Under the pieces are notes generated by a model. It made no database searches and was not told the DNA's origin. It saw only the letters and a program-made list of their open reading frames with translations. From Pirellulales bacterium (GTDB lineage: Bacteria; Planctomycetota; Planctomycetia; Pirellulales; PALSA-1355), in NCBI GenBank assembly GCA_022844125.1, contig JALHMI010000003.1:62001-126000 (forward strand): a DNA stretch of 64,000 nucleotides. Reading direction: 5' to 3'. Below, one piece after another: positions 277-9,225 of the stretch. How positions within the stretch are numbered: the stretch's first letter is position 1; each line of letters opens with the position of its first letter. The position numbers were made by a program, and so were the translations under genes.

Positions 277-1719
277 ATGCGTGTAGTTCTGTGGGATACG
301 CGAAAGCTGGATGTCGCCAAGGACTTCGCCGGCGGGTACGGCGTCGGCCAGTTCCCTGGCGGCGGCGGTATCGGCGGCCGCATCGTGCGTCACTTCTTCA
401 AACGCGACTACCGGCCGACGGCCCTGGTGTTCGCCTACCTGGCGGCGATCTTTCGTAAGTTGGGACACAAGGTGGAATACGCGCTGGACGACGTGCCCCC
501 GGGCGCGGACCTCTACGTATTCAATCCTTCGTTGATCACGCTGCCGCTCGAACGCCAGGCGATGGCCACCGCGATTGCGAAGAACCCCGGCGCGAAAGTG
601 ATCGTCACCGGAGCCGTTGCACACTCGATGACCGAGGCTTTTGAGGGTCTGCCCGTGACGGTCGTCCGCGGCGAGGCGGAACAGCTTCTCTGGAAGCTGG
701 ACGACGTGCTGAACACGACCGAGGGGTCGATCGACATTGGCAAGGTGGCTGACTTGGACCAACTGCCTCTGCCGGACTGGTCGCCGTTTGCGTATCAGAA
801 GTTCCGCATCGGTTTTGATTTTTCGCAATTCCCAACGGGATTGATCCAGCAGAGCCGGGGCTGCACGCTGAAGTGCAATTATTGCCCCTACATCATCATC
901 GAGAACTCGACGCGGGTGCGCTCACCGGAACTGGTGGCCGCCGAGATGCGCGCCGGCATCAAGATCTATGGTTTCCGCTCGTTCAAATTTCGCGATCCGC
1001 TGTTTGGCGTCGATCGCAAGAAGATCTTTCGCCTGGCAGAGCTGATTGGCAAGCTGCCGACCAAGATTCAGTTCTCCATTGAAAGCCGGATCGACGTGCT
1101 GCGGCCCGACGTGCTGAAGGCTCTCCGCGAAGTGGGTCTGACCAGCATCACGGTGGGCATTGAAACGCCCTCGGAGGAAACACTACGGAAGTACCACCGG
1201 GCGCCCATTCGCGACGATCGACAGCGAGAGTTCGTGAGCCTGTGCCAATCGCTGGGAATTCGGACCGTGGCGGGTTTCATGATCGGCTTCCCGGAAGACA
1301 CCGAGAAGAGCATCCTGGGCGTGCTGCGATACGCGAAAGCGGTGAATCCGACATTTGCGAACTTCAACGTGGTGACCCCCTACCCCGGCACCGAGTTCTA
1401 CGACCAGATCAAGTCGCAAATCGAAACCTTCGACACTTCGAAATACACCGTCTACACGCCGGTGCTGAAGTATCGCTATCTCACGAGCGAGCAGGTCAGC
1501 GAGTTGCACGCCAGGTGTTTCCTGAGCTACTTCTTCCGCGGGCGCTGGTTCTGGGCGAACGGGCCGATCGTGTGGCCGTGGCTGCAGAAGCTGGGGATGA
1601 AGCTGCCGCCGCTGCCGGCCGGCATTCACGCGCACGAGGGTCCGCCGCCGCCGCACTCGGGTTTGTCGGTAATCAACAAGGAAGACTGCAGCACCGACGA
1701 TCGGCGAAACGTGGCCTAG
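277..1719 (+). CDS. B12-binding-type radical SAM protein
   Basis: Predicted 480-residue radical SAM enzyme. The cluster motif is clear at about residue 199 (RGCTLKCNYCPY), i.e. CxxxCxxC, which would bind the [4Fe-4S] cluster that cleaves S-adenosylmethionine. Later motifs of the fold are visible: FSIESRIDVL, ITVGIETPSEETLRKYHR and GFMIGFPEDTEKS. The N-terminal ~180 residues look like the cobalamin-binding-type Rossmann region common in this superfamily (LGHKVEYALDDVPPGADLYVF, KVIVTGAVAH), but the DxHxxG cobalamin signature is not apparent, so cobalamin use is doubtful. ATG at 277 is preceded by GGAAAGGA. Substrate unknown; the partial glycosyltransferase upstream suggests lipid or envelope modification, which is inference. 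Confidence 0.8.
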   Translation: MRVVLWDTRKLDVAKDFAGGYGVGQFPGGGGIGGRIVRHFFKRDYRPTALVFAYLAAIFRKLGHKVEYALDDVPPGADLYVFNPSLITLPLERQAMATAIAKNPGAKVIVTGAVAHSMTEAFEGLPVTVVRGEAEQLLWKLDDVLNTTEGSIDIGKVADLDQLPLPDWSPFAYQKFRIGFDFSQFPTGLIQQSRGCTLKCNYCPYIIIENSTRVRSPELVAAEMRAGIKIYGFRSFKFRDPLFGVDRKKIFRLAELIGKLPTKIQFSIESRIDVLRPDVLKALREVGLTSITVGIETPSEETLRKYHRAPIRDDRQREFVSLCQSLGIRTVAGFMIGFPEDTEKSILGVLRYAKAVNPTFANFNVVTPYPGTEFYDQIKSQIETFDTSKYTVYTPVLKYRYLTSEQVSELHARCFLSYFFRGRWFWANGPIVWPWLQKLGMKLPPLPAGIHAHEGPPPPHSGLSVINKEDCSTDDRRNVA

Positions 1720-3088: not shown

Positions 3089-5728
3089 GTGCGGAGCCGC
3101 CGCGCGCCCGGCATCGCGGTCGAAGAAGGACTGCCTGCCGCCCGTCGACAAACATCCAGCGCGATTCGCGAGCTAACGGGTTTGAACGTGTCGGTCGACC
3201 TCTCATTACCACTGAACGCCATCGGACGGCCGCTGCAAGATTCGATTCGCGAATTGCGGCGCGGCTATCAGTCGGTATCCGAGTGCCTTGAACAGACCCT
3301 GGCTGACTGCGAGCAGCGGGGCAGCGACTTGGCGGACTGCCGGCGTCAACTGGCCGAGGCCCGCCGCAGTCTCTCCGAGTATGAACGGCAGCTCGCCGAA
3401 CGCGTCCGGGCCGAGAATGAACTTTCCGGCCGTTGCGGAAGCATCAAAAAGCAGCTCGACGCCAAGAGCGCCGAACTCACGCAGGCGCAGGAAAAGATCA
3501 TTCAGCTGCAGGGCGAGTGCGAGCAGAATCGCCAGCGGCTGGAAATGGCGGCCGAGCAGGCGCAGCATCTGCGCTCGCAAGTCGAGCGGCTGGAGCGTGA
3601 CTATCGCGAAGGTCGCGAAGAGCTAAGCCAGTTGCGCGGACAGTTCGCCCCCTTGGCCGAAGCCGCGGCGGACGCCGTGCGGCTGCGCGGCGAATTGTCG
3701 GCCGCACAAAGCGACCTGGTACGGCTCCGTGAGCAGGTGACCAGCGGCGGCGGTGGTGAAGCACAGTCGCAACTTGTGAATCTGCAGAACGAGCGGATTC
3801 AGCTCCAAACCGAACTGGAGTCGCTGCGACACCGAGCCTCGGAGCTGAGCGACTCGCTGGCCGAACAAAAACGGCAGGCCGACAGCGAACGTGATCGCTG
3901 GAGCGAAGAGCTGCGGCACATGCGTCAGATCATGGAGCGGCAGACCGAAGCCTGGACACAGCGTGCGGCGCAGGCCTCGGAAGACGCCGCTGCACTGGCG
4001 GCCACGCGCGAGCGACTGGCCGTGGCCGAAGCGGAGATCAACCAGGGGCGCGAGCGCCTGTCGCTACAGTCGCAGCAAACCGAACAACTGCGCGAGGAAA
4101 TCCACCGGCTCGAGTCGCAGCGTGAAGCCGCCCGCGACGAGCTCTCACAACTGCGCGGACAATTTGGCCCGTTGAGCGAAAGCGCCGCCGATGCGGCGAG
4201 ACTTCGCGGCGAGCTTTCCGCGGCGCAGGTGGAAATCGCCCGGCTGCGGGACGAGCTTTCCAGTCCGGCCGACACTTCGGAACTGCAGTCGCAACTGTTC
4301 ACGATGCAGAACGAACGGCAACAGCTCCTCGGCGAACTGGAGTCGCTGCGCCGCCGCGCCGCAGATCTGGCTGAAGCGCTCGACGAGCAAAAGCGACTGG
4401 TGCTGGCTGAACGCGAGCAGTGGAGCGAAGAGCTGAAGCACGTCCGCGAATCGCTCGACCGGCAGAGCGCTGCCTGGGCCGAGCGCGGCGAGCAGAACGC
4501 CGTCGACGCAGAAGCCCTGAATGCGGCCCGCGAGCGTGCGATCCAGGCCGAAGCCGAGATCGTACACAGCCGCGACCGGTTGCAATTACAGGTGGAGCAG
4601 AACAGCCAGCTGCGCGAGGAGATTGAACGCCTCGAAGCGAATCGCGAAACGTCCCGCGACGAACTGGCTCAGCTTCGCGGACAGTTTGGCCCGCTGGCCG
4701 AGAGTGCCGCCGAAGCCGCTCGACTGCGCGGAGAACTTTCGGCGGCTCAAAGCGAAATCGAACGCCTACGACTGCAGGTCGCCAGCCCCGCGGAGTCGGC
4801 CGAGCTCTCGCAGGAGCTGTTCGCCAGCCAGTCGGAACGTCAGCGGTTGCAAGGCGAGCTGGAAGCGATTCGCCAGCGGGCCAGCGATCTCACCGAGCAG
4901 CTTGCCGAACAACAGCGCCAGGCGGCCGCCGAACGCGATGCCTGGGGCGAAGAGCTGCGGCATCTGCGCGAGACGCTGGAACGGCAGTCCGAGACCTGGG
5001 CCGCACGCGCGGGTCAGCCGGGCGACGAGTCGGCCGTGGCGGTTGAGCTGTCTGCCGTGTCGGCCAGGCTGAATGCCGCACAGACCGATTTGGCCGCCAG
5101 CCAAAAACAGCTTCAGTTGCAGATGGCGACTAACGAAACGCTGCAAACCGAACTCGCGGAACTGCGCGCGGCCTGGGATGTTGCCCAGCAGGAACTGGAT
5201 CGCTTGCGGAGCCGGTCGCAAGCGACGGGTGTGGTCGACTCGGCCGAAGCCGAGGCACTGCGTGTCGAACTCTCGGCGGCGCAGCATGAGATCCTGCAGC
5301 TTAGCGAGCGACTTGCCTCGACGGCCGATGCCGGACCGCTGCAAGCGCAGCTGCAGGAAGCCGCAAATGAACGACGCCAACTCGAAAACGAACTCGACTT
5401 GTTGCGGCATCGCGGAGCAGAGCTCATCGAACAGCTTGCCGAGCAGAAGCGGACCGCCGCGGCCGATCGCGAGAACTGGAGCGAAGAGCTGCGACAGTTG
5501 CGCAAAGCTGTGGAGATGCAATCCGCAGCCCTGGCGCAGCGCGAGAACGTTGGTCCGATGGTCCCAACGCACCCCAACACCATGACACCGCCGCCATCCG
5601 ACCCGGCCCGCGCGACGCAGCCGCACGGGACAAGCAGCCGAGCCGAAGAGAGCGTGCTCGGCTCGGTGATGGAACAATTTGAGTCCCTGCAAAAGAGCAA
5701 GGTCCGCAAGCTCGCGCCCAAACGATAG
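3089..5728 (+). CDS. Long coiled-coil protein with four tandem ~174-residue repeats
   Basis: Up to 879 residues, almost entirely Gln/Glu/Arg/Leu/Ala-rich coiled coil from about residue 55 to 815, ending in a Pro/Thr-rich linker and a basic tail (SKVRKLAPKR). No signal peptide or membrane segment is seen, so it is probably cytoplasmic. Four related blocks begin at residues ~177, 350, 524 and 701; shared phrases are QLRGQFGPLAESAA, ARLRGELSAAQ, NERxQLxxELExLR and WSEELRxxRxxxERQ. The GTG start at 3089 is uncertain; a TTG at 3182 is an alternative. First gene of a + strand cluster with an FGE-like protein, a Zn-ribbon GTPase and a GAP1-like protein, where it may act as scaffold. That role is inference; SMC-like or kinesin-like database hits would reflect coiled coil only. 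Confidence 0.8.
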   Translation: MRSRRAPGIAVEEGLPAARRQTSSAIRELTGLNVSVDLSLPLNAIGRPLQDSIRELRRGYQSVSECLEQTLADCEQRGSDLADCRRQLAEARRSLSEYERQLAERVRAENELSGRCGSIKKQLDAKSAELTQAQEKIIQLQGECEQNRQRLEMAAEQAQHLRSQVERLERDYREGREELSQLRGQFAPLAEAAADAVRLRGELSAAQSDLVRLREQVTSGGGGEAQSQLVNLQNERIQLQTELESLRHRASELSDSLAEQKRQADSERDRWSEELRHMRQIMERQTEAWTQRAAQASEDAAALAATRERLAVAEAEINQGRERLSLQSQQTEQLREEIHRLESQREAARDELSQLRGQFGPLSESAADAARLRGELSAAQVEIARLRDELSSPADTSELQSQLFTMQNERQQLLGELESLRRRAADLAEALDEQKRLVLAEREQWSEELKHVRESLDRQSAAWAERGEQNAVDAEALNAARERAIQAEAEIVHSRDRLQLQVEQNSQLREEIERLEANRETSRDELAQLRGQFGPLAESAAEAARLRGELSAAQSEIERLRLQVASPAESAELSQELFASQSERQRLQGELEAIRQRASDLTEQLAEQQRQAAAERDAWGEELRHLRETLERQSETWAARAGQPGDESAVAVELSAVSARLNAAQTDLAASQKQLQLQMATNETLQTELAELRAAWDVAQQELDRLRSRSQATGVVDSAEAEALRVELSAAQHEILQLSERLASTADAGPLQAQLQEAANERRQLENELDLLRHRGAELIEQLAEQKRTAAADRENWSEELRQLRKAVEMQSAALAQRENVGPMVPTHPNTMTPPPSDPARATQPHGTSSRAEESVLGSVMEQFESLQKSKVRKLAPKR
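3617..5555 (+). repeat. Four tandem in-gene repeats (519, 522 and 531 bp apart, fourth unit shorter)
   Basis: Units start near 3617, 4136, 4658 and 5189, anchored on the codons for QLRGQF (3629, 4148, 4670) and its diverged copy at 5201. Units 1-3 are similar in both protein and DNA. The fourth has lost the RGQFGPL phrase but keeps LRVELSAAQ, NERRQLENELDLLRHRG, EQLAEQKR and NWSEELRQLR. This points to internal duplication of one coiled-coil module. Confidence 0.8.
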
Positions 5729-5771
5729 GCGCGCGTGCGAAACACCCCAGCGTAAGAGTGAGGCCCCGCTT

Positions 5772-6914
5772 ATGCGAACGACCAGCCCCGACAGTCAGAC
5801 CGGCGTTTTCTCCCGGCTGCCCGAGTGGTTCAACAATTGGCTTGGAGCCAGCGGTAGCTCGCGCATGAAGAGAGAGGCCGACGCCTCGATGCAGGCGGCC
5901 ATTGCAGCCGTTGTGGAGCAGGAGGACGAGGCTCCGCTGGCGCCGCTGCGCACAGGGCGCGAGATCGAATCCGTGGTCGACGAGATGCTCGCCCAGGGGC
6001 GGTACGCACTGCTGCTGCGGCCGCAACTGATCGGCAATCTGTCGCCCGAACAATTGGCCCGGACGCGCGCGGCGCTGGCCGACGGGATGGGCCTTGTGCC
6101 CGAGGGTTTCGTCACGCTGCGTCCACCGTTCACCGACGAGTCGGCCGGCGAAGCGCCGCCGTTGCGGCTCGAGGCGTACTACCTCGACCGCTACCCGGTG
6201 ACAAACAGTCAGTACGCTCACTTTGTGGCCAGCGGCGGCTACGAGCAGATGCAAATCTGGGATCCCGAGATCTGGGCCGCGCTGCTCGATTTCGTCGACA
6301 CGACGGGTCACCCTGGCCCGCGCAACTGGAAGAACGGCCGCTTTCCCCGCGGCGAAGAACATCATCCCGTGGCCGGCGTCTGCTGGTACGAGGCCGTGGC
6401 CTATGCCCGCTGGATCGGCAAACGACTTCCCAGCGATGCGGAATGGGTGAAGGCCGGTAGCTGGCCCGTATCGATTCCTGGTCACCCCCTGCTCTCACGA
6501 CGTTACCCGTGGGGCGAAGCGATGGACCGTTCGCGGGCGAACCTGTGGGGTTCCGGTCCCGGTCGCACGGTGAGCGTGTTCGAGTTTCCTTCCGGAGTAA
6601 GCGTGGGGGGCGTGCATCAGCTGATCGGCAATGTCTGGGAGTGGACAGCCGACGCCTTCAACCTGAACAGCACCGACGCACCGGCCTCCTCGGTGCAAAC
6701 CAAGATGAAGAGCATCCGCGGCGGGGCATTCGACACCTACCTGGACGGCCAGGCGACCTGCCAGTTCCAGAGCGCGGACGTGGCGCTGACGCGGAAGCAC
6801 AACATCGGCTTCCGCTGCGCGATCCATCTGAACGATCTGGCGGATTGGCGCGAGGAGTCGGCCGACGAGGCCGACGAAACCGAAAACAACTCGTTTGCGG
6901 AGAACCCGTCATGA
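5772..6914 (+). CDS. FGE/SUMF1-fold protein without the catalytic cysteines
   Basis: Predicted 380 residues; ATG 5772 follows GAGTGAGG. The C-terminal ~245 residues have the formylglycine-generating-enzyme/EgtB fold signatures in order: YYLDRYPVTNSQYAHFV, HPVAGVCWYEAVAYARWIG, KRLPSDAEWVKAG, YPWGEA, LIGNVWEWTADAF, SIRGGAF and NIGFRCAI. True sulfatase-activating FGEs carry a copper-binding cysteine pair after the RGGS motif. Here that segment has one cysteine only (GQATCQFQ), so it is probably not an oxidase. The N-terminal ~110 residues are novel and partly helical. Its stop overlaps the next start (ATGA, 4 bases), implying coupled translation with the GTPase. A sensor, ligand-binding or scaffold role is inference. 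Confidence 0.85.
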   Translation: MRTTSPDSQTGVFSRLPEWFNNWLGASGSSRMKREADASMQAAIAAVVEQEDEAPLAPLRTGREIESVVDEMLAQGRYALLLRPQLIGNLSPEQLARTRAALADGMGLVPEGFVTLRPPFTDESAGEAPPLRLEAYYLDRYPVTNSQYAHFVASGGYEQMQIWDPEIWAALLDFVDTTGHPGPRNWKNGRFPRGEEHHPVAGVCWYEAVAYARWIGKRLPSDAEWVKAGSWPVSIPGHPLLSRRYPWGEAMDRSRANLWGSGPGRTVSVFEFPSGVSVGGVHQLIGNVWEWTADAFNLNSTDAPASSVQTKMKSIRGGAFDTYLDGQATCQFQSADVALTRKHNIGFRCAIHLNDLADWREESADEADETENNSFAENPS

Positions 6915-7822
6915 ATCGCGGCGTCGCGCTCGAACTAGACAGCCTTCGGTTGGCCCACTACGGCAATCAGATCAGTTGCTTGATCTGCGCCGAGGGCAAT
7001 ACACCGGATGCCGAATACTGCCGAAATTGTTTTGCGCCGATGATCCTGGCGCATCAGGCCCAGTCACATGCCAGCAAGCCGGTGATGTTCGCGGCGCTGG
7101 GCCCCAGCGGCGTGGGCAAAACGGTGTACCTGGGAATGCTGCTCGACATGCTCTCGAGGCAGCCGAAACATTTGCAACTGGCCGCCCGGGGCGGATTCTC
7201 CGTGACGCTCCAGCACAACACGATCGGCGCGCTTTCGCGCTGCGAGTTCCCCACGAAGACGCCCAACGAACCGGATCGCTGGAATTGGGTGCACTGCCAG
7301 CTCCGCAGCGCCAAGCAGAAGCAACCCGTCGAGATGGTGATTCCGGATATGGCCGGCGAGGCCTTGTTCGAGGAAGTCGACCATCCGCATTCCTATCGCG
7401 TGATCCACTCGCTGCTCAGCCGCTGCGACGGCGTGATGATTCTGATCGACGGCACGAAGCTGCAGGCCGGCTCGCTGGATGAGGATTACTTCACGATGAA
7501 GCTGTTGAGCCATCTGACCGAATTGACGACCGATCCGAAGCGGCCCTGGTCGTCGCGCCCCGTGGCATTGATCTTCAGCAAGGCCGATCAGTGTGAATCG
7601 TGCTTCGAAGACCCGCAGGCGTACGCCCAGCGGCATGCGCCGGGACTCTCGCGGATCTGCACTCAGAAGTTTCGGCGGCATCGGTTCTTTGCGGCGGGCG
7701 TGGCAGGAGCGATCGCCAACCGGCCCGTACGCGGCAATCCCTCGCACATGGTTCCGCTGCGCGTGGAACCGCGCGGCATCATCGAACCGTTTGAGTGGCT
7801 GGTGGACAACCTGCGCGGTTAG
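6911..7822 (+). CDS. Zinc-ribbon P-loop GTPase (DO-GTPase2-like)
   Basis: Predicted 303-residue protein starting at ATG 6911. N-terminal zinc ribbon with C23, C26, C37 and C40 (CLIC...CRNC). The GTPase domain has Walker A GPSGVGKT at residues 64-71, a DxxG-type motif PDMAGEA at D146, a hydrophobic strand DGVMILIDG, and SKAD at 223-226 in place of NKxD. The arrangement matches the uncharacterised bacterial double-GTPase type 2 (DO-GTPase2) family as I remember it. Members of that family are found beside GAP1 proteins, as here (7909-9225). The protein has no membrane segment. It is probably the NTP-dependent switch of the cluster, with the zinc ribbon as an interaction module. The family assignment needs a profile search; the GTPase motifs are direct observations. 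Confidence 0.8.
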   Translation: MNRGVALELDSLRLAHYGNQISCLICAEGNTPDAEYCRNCFAPMILAHQAQSHASKPVMFAALGPSGVGKTVYLGMLLDMLSRQPKHLQLAARGGFSVTLQHNTIGALSRCEFPTKTPNEPDRWNWVHCQLRSAKQKQPVEMVIPDMAGEALFEEVDHPHSYRVIHSLLSRCDGVMILIDGTKLQAGSLDEDYFTMKLLSHLTELTTDPKRPWSSRPVALIFSKADQCESCFEDPQAYAQRHAPGLSRICTQKFRRHRFFAAGVAGAIANRPVRGNPSHMVPLRVEPRGIIEPFEWLVDNLRG

Positions 7823-7908
7823 CACGAGGAAGCGCTGCGGGAGTTGCACGGACGGGCTGGCGACAACTTCATCCATAGACGAACGCAATCGGCAAACTGG
7901 GGCCTCTC

Positions 7909-9225
7909 GTGCAAATTGAACAAGCGGTATTCACCTCGGCAAAAACTGATCGGGCCCAGGGCTATCAACTCCTGAGCCGTAGCCCGCACCTGAGCGAGGC
8001 CGACGCTCGCGAGCTTTCAGTCTGGGCACCATCTCACGGATCTCTGCTCGAGCCGGGCGAAGCGGCCACGAGCGCCAACTGCTTTCGGCTTTCGAGCGGG
8101 GCCTTTTGCGTTTCGCGAACTTCGCAGGCCGGCGCGGAATACAGCGGCCGCGGCGAGCTGATCTACACGCAGTTCCTGATCGTGCCGCCGGACATCATGG
8201 TCCGGTTTGCAAACAATCCGTTCGCGATCCTGCGGGCCGCCTCGGCCACGGGTGACTTGTGCGTGCGAGACAACTCGCCGGAAGCACTCCCTCCCTTGCA
8301 GCTTGCCGGGAGAGCACCGGTGGTCGACCTGAGCCTGGTAGCGCAGCTTGCACGTGAGCCAGGTCCGGCGGCGATGGCCGTTTTTCTCGAGCAAGCTGTG
8401 GCGAGCGAGCGGCTGGCGATTTATAGCGAGACGTCGGTGGAGCAGCTTGTGGCCGGGCTATTGAACTTGCTGCCGGTCGAGTGTCGGACGGCGTTTTCAT
8501 TCAGCACGGGATTGAAGTTCTCCACGCTGCGGAACGTGCGATTGTGTGCGATGTCGGCTGACGAGTCCGAGTGGCGCAGCATTGCCCGGCACGGCGTGAC
8601 AACGCTCAAGATTGACCATCAGACCGACTCGCAGGAACAGCGCAGCGGCTGGGCCGGCTGGATCGAGGAGGTGTTGCGCACGGGCAAGCTTTCGGTTCTG
8701 GCGGCGGAACTTGAGCAACCTCGGCCGGGGCTAACCTGCCTCGAACTTGACTCGCTAGGGACTCGCTTGCTGGCGAACTTACACGCGGGTCATTCCCCGA
8801 AACCGGCAATCGCGACGAAAGCCTCGCCGCCGCGGACGGCGCCAGCCAGGACTCAACAGCGGGCGGATCAGCCGCATCCGCAACACACCAGCAGCATGGC
8901 CTTGGAAGAACCCGGGCGCGCCAGGGAGCTGGATCAACTTGCCGAGCGGCTGTCGCAGCAGCCGGCGCCGATCCTGGAGATGCTGGAAAAGATCGACGAC
9001 CTGGTGTTTGCGGCGATCGCCGGCGATACCGGGGCGCTGGCGGAGCTGGAAGTGCTCTGGCCACTCACGGCGTCGGAGCTTGAGCCGGAGCTCGTCGAGC
9101 AGACGCGCGAGCAGTATCTCCGCTGTGCGCTGTCCCTGTGCGGCGACTCGGCCGAAGGCATCGGAGCTCGTCCAGAACGGGCGCTGGCCGCGGTTGACGT
9201 GCTGTGCGTGCTGTTTGAAGAGTAA
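7909..9225 (+). CDS. GTPase-associated protein 1 (GAP1)-like
   Basis: Predicted 438 residues from GTG 7909. The opening (IEQAVFTSAKTDRAQGYQLL, then WAPSHGSLL, FRLSSGAFCVSRTSQAG and GRGELIYTQFL) matches what I recall of the GAP1 N-terminal domain (type N2). AFSFSTGLKFSTLRNVRL fits its middle domain. The C-terminal ~100 residues are helical and divergent. The family is defined by its genomic link with DO-GTPases, and the immediately preceding gene is such a GTPase. Its name reflects that association, not proven GTPase-activating function. It is 86 bases past the GTPase stop and ends 3 bases before the convergent carA. Confidence 0.7.
   Translation: MQIEQAVFTSAKTDRAQGYQLLSRSPHLSEADARELSVWAPSHGSLLEPGEAATSANCFRLSSGAFCVSRTSQAGAEYSGRGELIYTQFLIVPPDIMVRFANNPFAILRAASATGDLCVRDNSPEALPPLQLAGRAPVVDLSLVAQLAREPGPAAMAVFLEQAVASERLAIYSETSVEQLVAGLLNLLPVECRTAFSFSTGLKFSTLRNVRLCAMSADESEWRSIARHGVTTLKIDHQTDSQEQRSGWAGWIEEVLRTGKLSVLAAELEQPRPGLTCLELDSLGTRLLANLHAGHSPKPAIATKASPPRTAPARTQQRADQPHPQHTSSMALEEPGRARELDQLAERLSQQPAPILEMLEKIDDLVFAAIAGDTGALAELEVLWPLTASELEPELVEQTREQYLRCALSLCGDSAEGIGARPERALAAVDVLCVLFEE

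Follow-up and report, generated by a model that had tools for sequence, protein, structure and literature searches.

The 64,000-nucleotide stretch analyzed here (Pirellulales bacterium, contig JALHMI010000003.1, positions 62,001 to 126,000; hereafter the window) contains a locus of four open reading frames (ORFs) on the plus strand at about 3182–9225. The ORF listing gives, in sequence, a repeat coiled-coil protein, a protein with the fold of formylglycine-generating enzyme (FGE), a zinc-ribbon GTPase and a GAP1-N2 protein, present as a single module copy in this genome. Judged from sequence comparison, the locus probably encodes a lineage-specific, chemosensory-type GTPase signaling module, a reading to which we give a probability of about 0.55. 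For this subfamily, constant composition, an obligate pairing between the GTPase and its FGE-like partner, mostly vertical inheritance and a gene-order link to chemotaxis-type genes speak for signaling rather than for a conflict system. An earlier note on this DNA had described four same-strand genes, a 4-base overlap between the FGE-like and GTPase genes, and repeats in the coiled coil, all of which are confirmed.

The GTPase and its FGE-like partner

The GTPase matches the Pfam families DO-GTPase1 (PF19975, 2.9e-13) and DO-GTPase2 (PF19993, 4.3e-12), both over the curated cut-off. Its orthologs share 50–84% identity, and G64, G69, K70, T71, D146, G149, K224, and D226 are invariant. The cysteines C23, C26, C37, and C40 of its only zinc ribbon are likewise invariant in the ortholog alignment. 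The zinc ribbon and the motifs GPSGVGKT, PDMAGEA, and SKAD picked out by the earlier note are conserved across orthologs, so that the full set of G motifs is retained. The AlphaFold model (predicted local distance difference test score, pLDDT, 80.6) has a small-GTPase fold and matches Der, MglA, Rac1, and Arf-type GTPases. A match to DolB was weak (0.016) and was dismissed.

The FGE-like protein matches the FGE-sulfatase family (PF03781, 3e-42), whose fold it shares with true FGE and the EgtB family. It differs from them in lacking the copper cysteines, in having no DinB domain, and in its fixed GTPase partner. The motif RGGA[FY]DTY, strongly conserved, occupies the place of the copper-cysteine region of true FGE, and both cysteines are missing in the aligned orthologs. 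Because these cysteines are absent, the description of the protein as a pseudoenzyme, already given in the earlier note, is supported, and we predict it to be non-catalytic. Its C-terminal third is among its best conserved parts, whereas FGE proteins linked to diversity-generating retroelements diversify that third (PMC7159879).

The two genes occur together throughout. A GTPase profile identified the gene in 78 of 197 genomes of the order, spread over 55 of 103 genera; the FGE-like profile found the same 78 genomes and no others, neither partner ever occurring alone. The FGE-like gene lies directly upstream of the GTPase gene in 56/56 and 69/69 loci, and GAP1-N lies downstream of it in 47/57 and 71/72. 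These adjacency counts comprise the loci where the contig allows the comparison, and the two sets overlap, with some genomes common to both. The earlier note had treated GTPase and GAP1 as the linked pair. Some lineages have a truncated GAP1 or none, and therefore the invariant core, as far as these genomes indicate, is the GTPase with the FGE-like protein.

Recurrence and inheritance among planctomycetes

The four genes are not neighbors in this genome only; the same arrangement is seen in about 20 families within the order and also outside it. A GAP1-N2 protein was present in 36 of 58 relatives. These proteins form two classes, one long (mostly 600–1100 residues) and one short (near 450 residues), and in almost all short-class neighborhoods the genes run coiled coil, FGE-like, GTPase, GAP1. 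Long-class proteins (about 740–1100 residues) were seen in other genomes of the order (L065–L071) with none of this module's proteins nearby. A scan of named genomes yielded 80 loci, nearly all labeled planctomycetes (a few metagenome-assembled genome records carry another lineage label or none), including Blastopirellula marina DSM 3645, Singulisphaera acidiphila DSM 18658, Aquisphaera insulae, and Tautonia sociabilis. In the GTPase search across the phylum, only a small number of candidates was scored in each genome, and its result is not readable as absence outside the order; the Isosphaeraceae members were found in the later named-genome contig scan.

The tree of the core (GTPase and FGE-like protein) recovers most genome families, and 10 of 14 strong splits of the module tree also occur in the rpoB tree. 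There are two strong conflicts, in each of which the module tree unites members of one genome family (f2 and f10) but rpoB does not. Distances correlate with those of rpoB at r = 0.51 for the GTPase and 0.39 for the FGE-like protein. In about 20 loci, synteny extends to carA on the downstream side and to a small Cys-rich gene on the upstream side. Within the order, the module is patchily distributed; alongside the agreement of tree and synteny, this pattern is therefore read as mostly vertical descent with losses.

A loss is visible in genome G020 (locus L059, with no N in the stretch), which no longer has the FGE-like and GTPase genes and in which the coiled-coil and GAP1 genes abut. In the remaining segment (L059:8768-10915), the coiled-coil motif and one invariant Ser of GAP1 look degraded.

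A chemosensory operon in the sister clade

In 20 loci, from Isosphaeraceae (including S. acidiphila DSM 18658), Planctomycetaceae, and a Pirellulaceae branch, chemosensory genes lie upstream of the module on the same strand. Their order is MCP, a CheA hybrid kinase (Hpt, HATPase, CheW, and receiver domains), a receiver-DUF4388 protein, and an FHA/coiled-coil gene, followed by the module. The upstream set ends at contig or locus limits in some loci, and MCP is counted where the contig reaches. The chemosensory-linked loci split from the stand-alone loci with 99% support in the Shimodaira-Hasegawa-like approximate likelihood ratio test (SH-aLRT); their clade includes L259, L262, and L269, seen without the upstream genes. 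The receiver-DUF4388 protein is present in 7/7 genomes with the chemosensory layout and in 0/62 without it. The position of the module directly behind chemotaxis-type sensor genes in some planctomycetes suggests a signaling output rather than an antivirus weapon. We take DUF4388 to be a PATAN-type domain. Cyanobacterial receivers with a PATAN domain operate between chemotaxis-like systems and type IV pili (PMC7690835).

The FHA part of the FHA/coiled-coil protein is not recognizable in all loci and is missing in some Isosphaeraceae copies. This protein ends in a conserved LRxHLxEIHxxE ... SRLxKLW (L103, L104, L106, L107, L111, L263–L278).

The GAP1 protein

The GAP1 protein matches GAP1-N2 (PF20013, 1.8e-16). 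Together with the two DO-GTPase matches, this bears out the family calls of the earlier note. A match to GAP1-M (0.049) falls below the cut-off, and long GAP1 proteins can be aligned with it over the N and M region. A C-terminal helical domain is present, and the Pfam GAP1-C profile gave no match in the window protein. By lineage, the protein occurs as N+M, as N+M+C, or as C alone, the last form being confined to one family and its relatives. The short fourth gene of that family (117–135 residues) was at one point taken for GAP1-N alone; alignment and domain models show that it holds the C-terminal helical domain alone.

In the AlphaFold model (pLDDT 84.5), the strand/helix order of the N domain is bb-a-bbb-aa, which fits the longin order. 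Foldseek returns mostly longin/DENN regulators, namely FLCN/FNIP2, Lst4, C9orf72-SMCR8, GATOR1, and DENND10, together with TagF, a Lokiarchaeota longin, and some PAS/LOV and Bcs1 chains. The Lst4 longin is matched with a probability of 0.93–1.00 and a TMt of 0.43–0.50. These models place GAP1 nearest to the longin/DENN-type GTPase regulators, with weak scores, as a lead and not as proof. A GTPase-binding role of GAP1 is plausible given the relationship of longin domains to MglB-like GTPase-activating proteins (GAPs) (Zhang et al. 2012, PMC3521125). The predicted domain order, with a longin-like N domain, an alpha/beta middle, and a helical C-terminal domain, resembles that of the eukaryotic longin-DENN-dDENN regulators (PMC3521125). 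GAP1 differs from them in that no sequence similarity was detected, the structural scores are weak, and the partner is a bacterial GTPase rather than Rab.

The coiled-coil protein

The coiled coil contains three to four degenerate repeats of about 522 nucleotides, spaced 519–534 nucleotides apart and 64–78% identical. The start at 3089 favored by the earlier note is probably too far upstream, and a start at TTG 3182 or GTG 3188 agrees better with the ortholog L036. The protein has Fez1/EzrA/SMC-type coiled-coil matches, which are largely compositional. Its orthologs range from 142 to 876 residues and are encoded directly upstream of the FGE-like gene in nearly all loci, some of them at contig edges. 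The family ends in a motif with the consensus DPVLxSVMAQFExLQKDxxxRR; the motif model matches in 96 loci, and most others have diverged forms.

Proposed mechanism and alternatives

In the signaling module that we propose, the zinc-ribbon GTPase would be the switch and the FGE-fold protein its obligate non-catalytic partner, binding a target or ligand. GAP1 would dock on the GTPase via its longin-like N domain and alter the nucleotide state, as a GAP or as a guanine nucleotide exchange factor (GEF). The coiled coil may act as a spacer or scaffold of variable length, with its conserved C-terminal helix docking on the GTPase, the FGE-like protein, or GAP1. For the sister clade, we propose that the module forms the output half of a chemosensory-type operon with the MCP, the CheA hybrid kinase, the receiver-DUF4388 regulator, and the FHA/coiled-coil protein, and so would work in the manner of the Myxococcus polarity circuit (Frz to RomR to MglA/MglB), without membership in it. 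What the sequences themselves show is the content and order of the genes, their co-occurrence, the conserved motifs, the mostly vertical descent, and the linkage to chemosensory genes on one strand; formation of a complex, control of the GTPase by GAP1, and a role in signaling are inferred from these.

The likeness to Frz-RomR-MglA/MglB (PMC6785124), as drawn here by analogy, is one of layout. Both have a small GTPase, a GTPase-binding regulator of longin/roadblock type (for GAP1 by predicted fold only), and, for the module as linked genes in the sister clade, a chemosensory kinase and a response regulator. The module differs in its GTPase family, which has a zinc ribbon, in a longin-like rather than roadblock regulator, and in an FGE-like protein and coiled coil with no Mgl counterpart; Pfam gave no MglA or roadblock match in the module. 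More specifically, and tentatively, the locus may represent a GTPase circuit under chemosensory control that has no relation to MglA/MglB and whose zinc-ribbon GTPase is acted on by a bacterial longin/DENN-like regulator, GAP1, and by an obligate pseudoenzyme of the FGE fold. If so, GAP1 proteins generally could by extension be longin-type GTPase regulators of bacteria, and defense would not be the role of every DO-GTPase system. The longin-like fold, if true, would add a large bacterial family to the longin-type GTPase regulators.

Several observations weigh against the signaling reading. Presence in the order is that of an accessory trait (78/197; 12 changes versus 15.2 in shuffles). Loci of the window's own clade lack the chemosensory half, and the stand-alone clade, to which the window belongs, has no receiver-DUF4388 homologue at E 1e-25, so a chemosensory link there would hold by homology. 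GAP1-N is absent in the family that keeps the C-terminal domain only, and L095, L096, and L105 have no detectable GAP1; GAP1 is thus not essential. The Foldseek scores of GAP1 are weak, the best being TagF (4.5e-4, TM-scores 0.27/0.34), and homology between GAP1 and TagF, tested by sequence profile, was rejected, as no similarity was found.

DO-GTPase/GAP1-N2 systems were proposed as conflict systems from genomics alone, with no biochemistry, and FGE (FGS) proteins were named in planctomycete examples (Kaur et al. 2020, PMC7159879). On this model, GTPase and GAP1 would set a threshold and the FGE domain would serve as a decoy or binder effector against invaders. The shared families and the patchy presence among relatives agree with such a role, which we keep as a live rival but consider unlikely for this subfamily. 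Instead of a variable effector, the mark of a conflict system, the same FGE-like partner is present in 78/78 genomes, with a conserved C-terminal third. Inheritance appears mostly vertical between syntenic housekeeping flanks, the sister clade has the CheA/MCP linkage, PADLOC gave no match of note, and no module member was found in the viral contig, phage, and plasmid collections searched.

The module and the systems of Kaur et al. have in common a zinc-ribbon DO-GTPase followed by an N2-domain GAP1. However, the module has one GTPase with one ribbon, whereas DO-GTPases of this type usually have two (PMC7159879); it has no FNIII component (no Pfam match in the four window proteins) and a GAP1 without recognizable GAP1-C. 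It also adds an obligate FGE-like partner and a coiled-coil gene with a C-terminal motif, is constant and mostly vertical, and is linked to CheA/MCP in one clade. Chemotaxis, CheA, longin, and DENN are not mentioned in the text of PMC7159879. The systems themselves, including planctomycete ones with FGE domains, were thus already known; new here are the obligate FGE-GTPase pairing, the coiled-coil motif, the apparent vertical inheritance, the chemosensory operon, and the predicted longin-like fold.

Somewhat less likely again is a structural or cell-organization device, in which the coiled coil would form filaments or a scaffold whose assembly is under GTPase control. Its long repeats, variable length, and conserved terminal motif would suit such a device, as would the EzrA and crescentin-type profile matches, which lie below the cut-off. 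Against it, the length varies sixfold, a few lineages (L096) keep the FGE-like protein and GTPase without the coiled coil, and the profile matches are largely compositional. EgtB carries its iron histidines in a DinB domain. For the FGE-fold protein, the reading as a novel kind of active enzyme, gated by the GTPase, is very improbable: relatives with other chemistry exist (EgtB, SenA, OvoA, PvdO) and RGGA[FY]DTY is strongly conserved, but the copper cysteines are missing, Pfam matched no DinB domain, and the alignment has no invariant Cys or His.

The earlier note's preference for signaling or cell organization over defense gains support from the sister-clade chemosensory operon, the mostly vertical inheritance, and the absence from mobile elements. 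Its overall interpretation stands in part: the family calls held, but it had not foreseen that Kaur et al. already had FGE-domain members in planctomycete GAP1-N2 systems. The subfamily is compact and constant and occurs in cultured strains (B. marina, S. acidiphila). Its partner pair is clear, and gene order ties it to a signaling pathway of known type, so that the effect of GAP1 on the GTPase becomes directly testable.

Locus layout and neighboring genes

Table 1. Features of the four-gene locus in window coordinates
Feature	Position	Strand	Evidence
Repeat coiled-coil protein, ~848 residues	3182..5728	+	ORF; start TTG 3182 or GTG 3188; GTG 3089 possible
Coiled-coil internal repeats, spacing 519-534 nt	3614..5551	+	Repeat families D1-D3, 64-78% identity
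Coiled-coil C-terminal motif ESVLGSVMEQFESLQKSKVRKLAPKR	5648..5725	+	C-terminal alignment; motif model
FGE-sulfatase-fold protein, 380 residues, predicted non-catalytic	5772..6914	+	PF03781 3e-42
ATGA overlap of FGE-like stop and GTPase start, 4 bases	6911..6914	+	Sequence
Zinc-ribbon DO-type GTPase, 303 residues	6911..7822	+	PF19975/PF19993; ortholog alignment
Cys4 zinc ribbon C23, C26, C37, C40	6977..7030	+	Invariant alignment columns
P-loop LGPSGVGKT (G1)	7097..7123	+	Invariant residues in ortholog alignment
GTPase G3 PDMAGE	7343-7360	+	
GTPase G4 SKAD	7577-7588	+	
GAP1-type protein, 438 residues	7909..9225	+	PF20013 1.8e-16; AlphaFold; Foldseek; separable domains
GAP1 domains: N (GAP1-N2, longin-like topology), M, C-terminal helical	residues 1-129, about 140-300, about 336-438		

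A FliM-like gene, judged by eye, lies beside or near the module in Blastopirellula-type genomes (L250:10343-11473, L059:1678-2772, L037, L040, L125, L126). In five loci it is convergent and lies a few to about 150 bases past GAP1.

Upstream of the module in the window, positions 2268-2786 of the minus strand encode the small Cys-rich protein, which is divergent from the module and probably secreted; a Pfam search with it gave no match, and its relatives occupy the same place in 21 loci. A small membrane-type protein is encoded at positions 1737-2087, also on the minus strand; 11 loci have relatives of it in the corresponding place.

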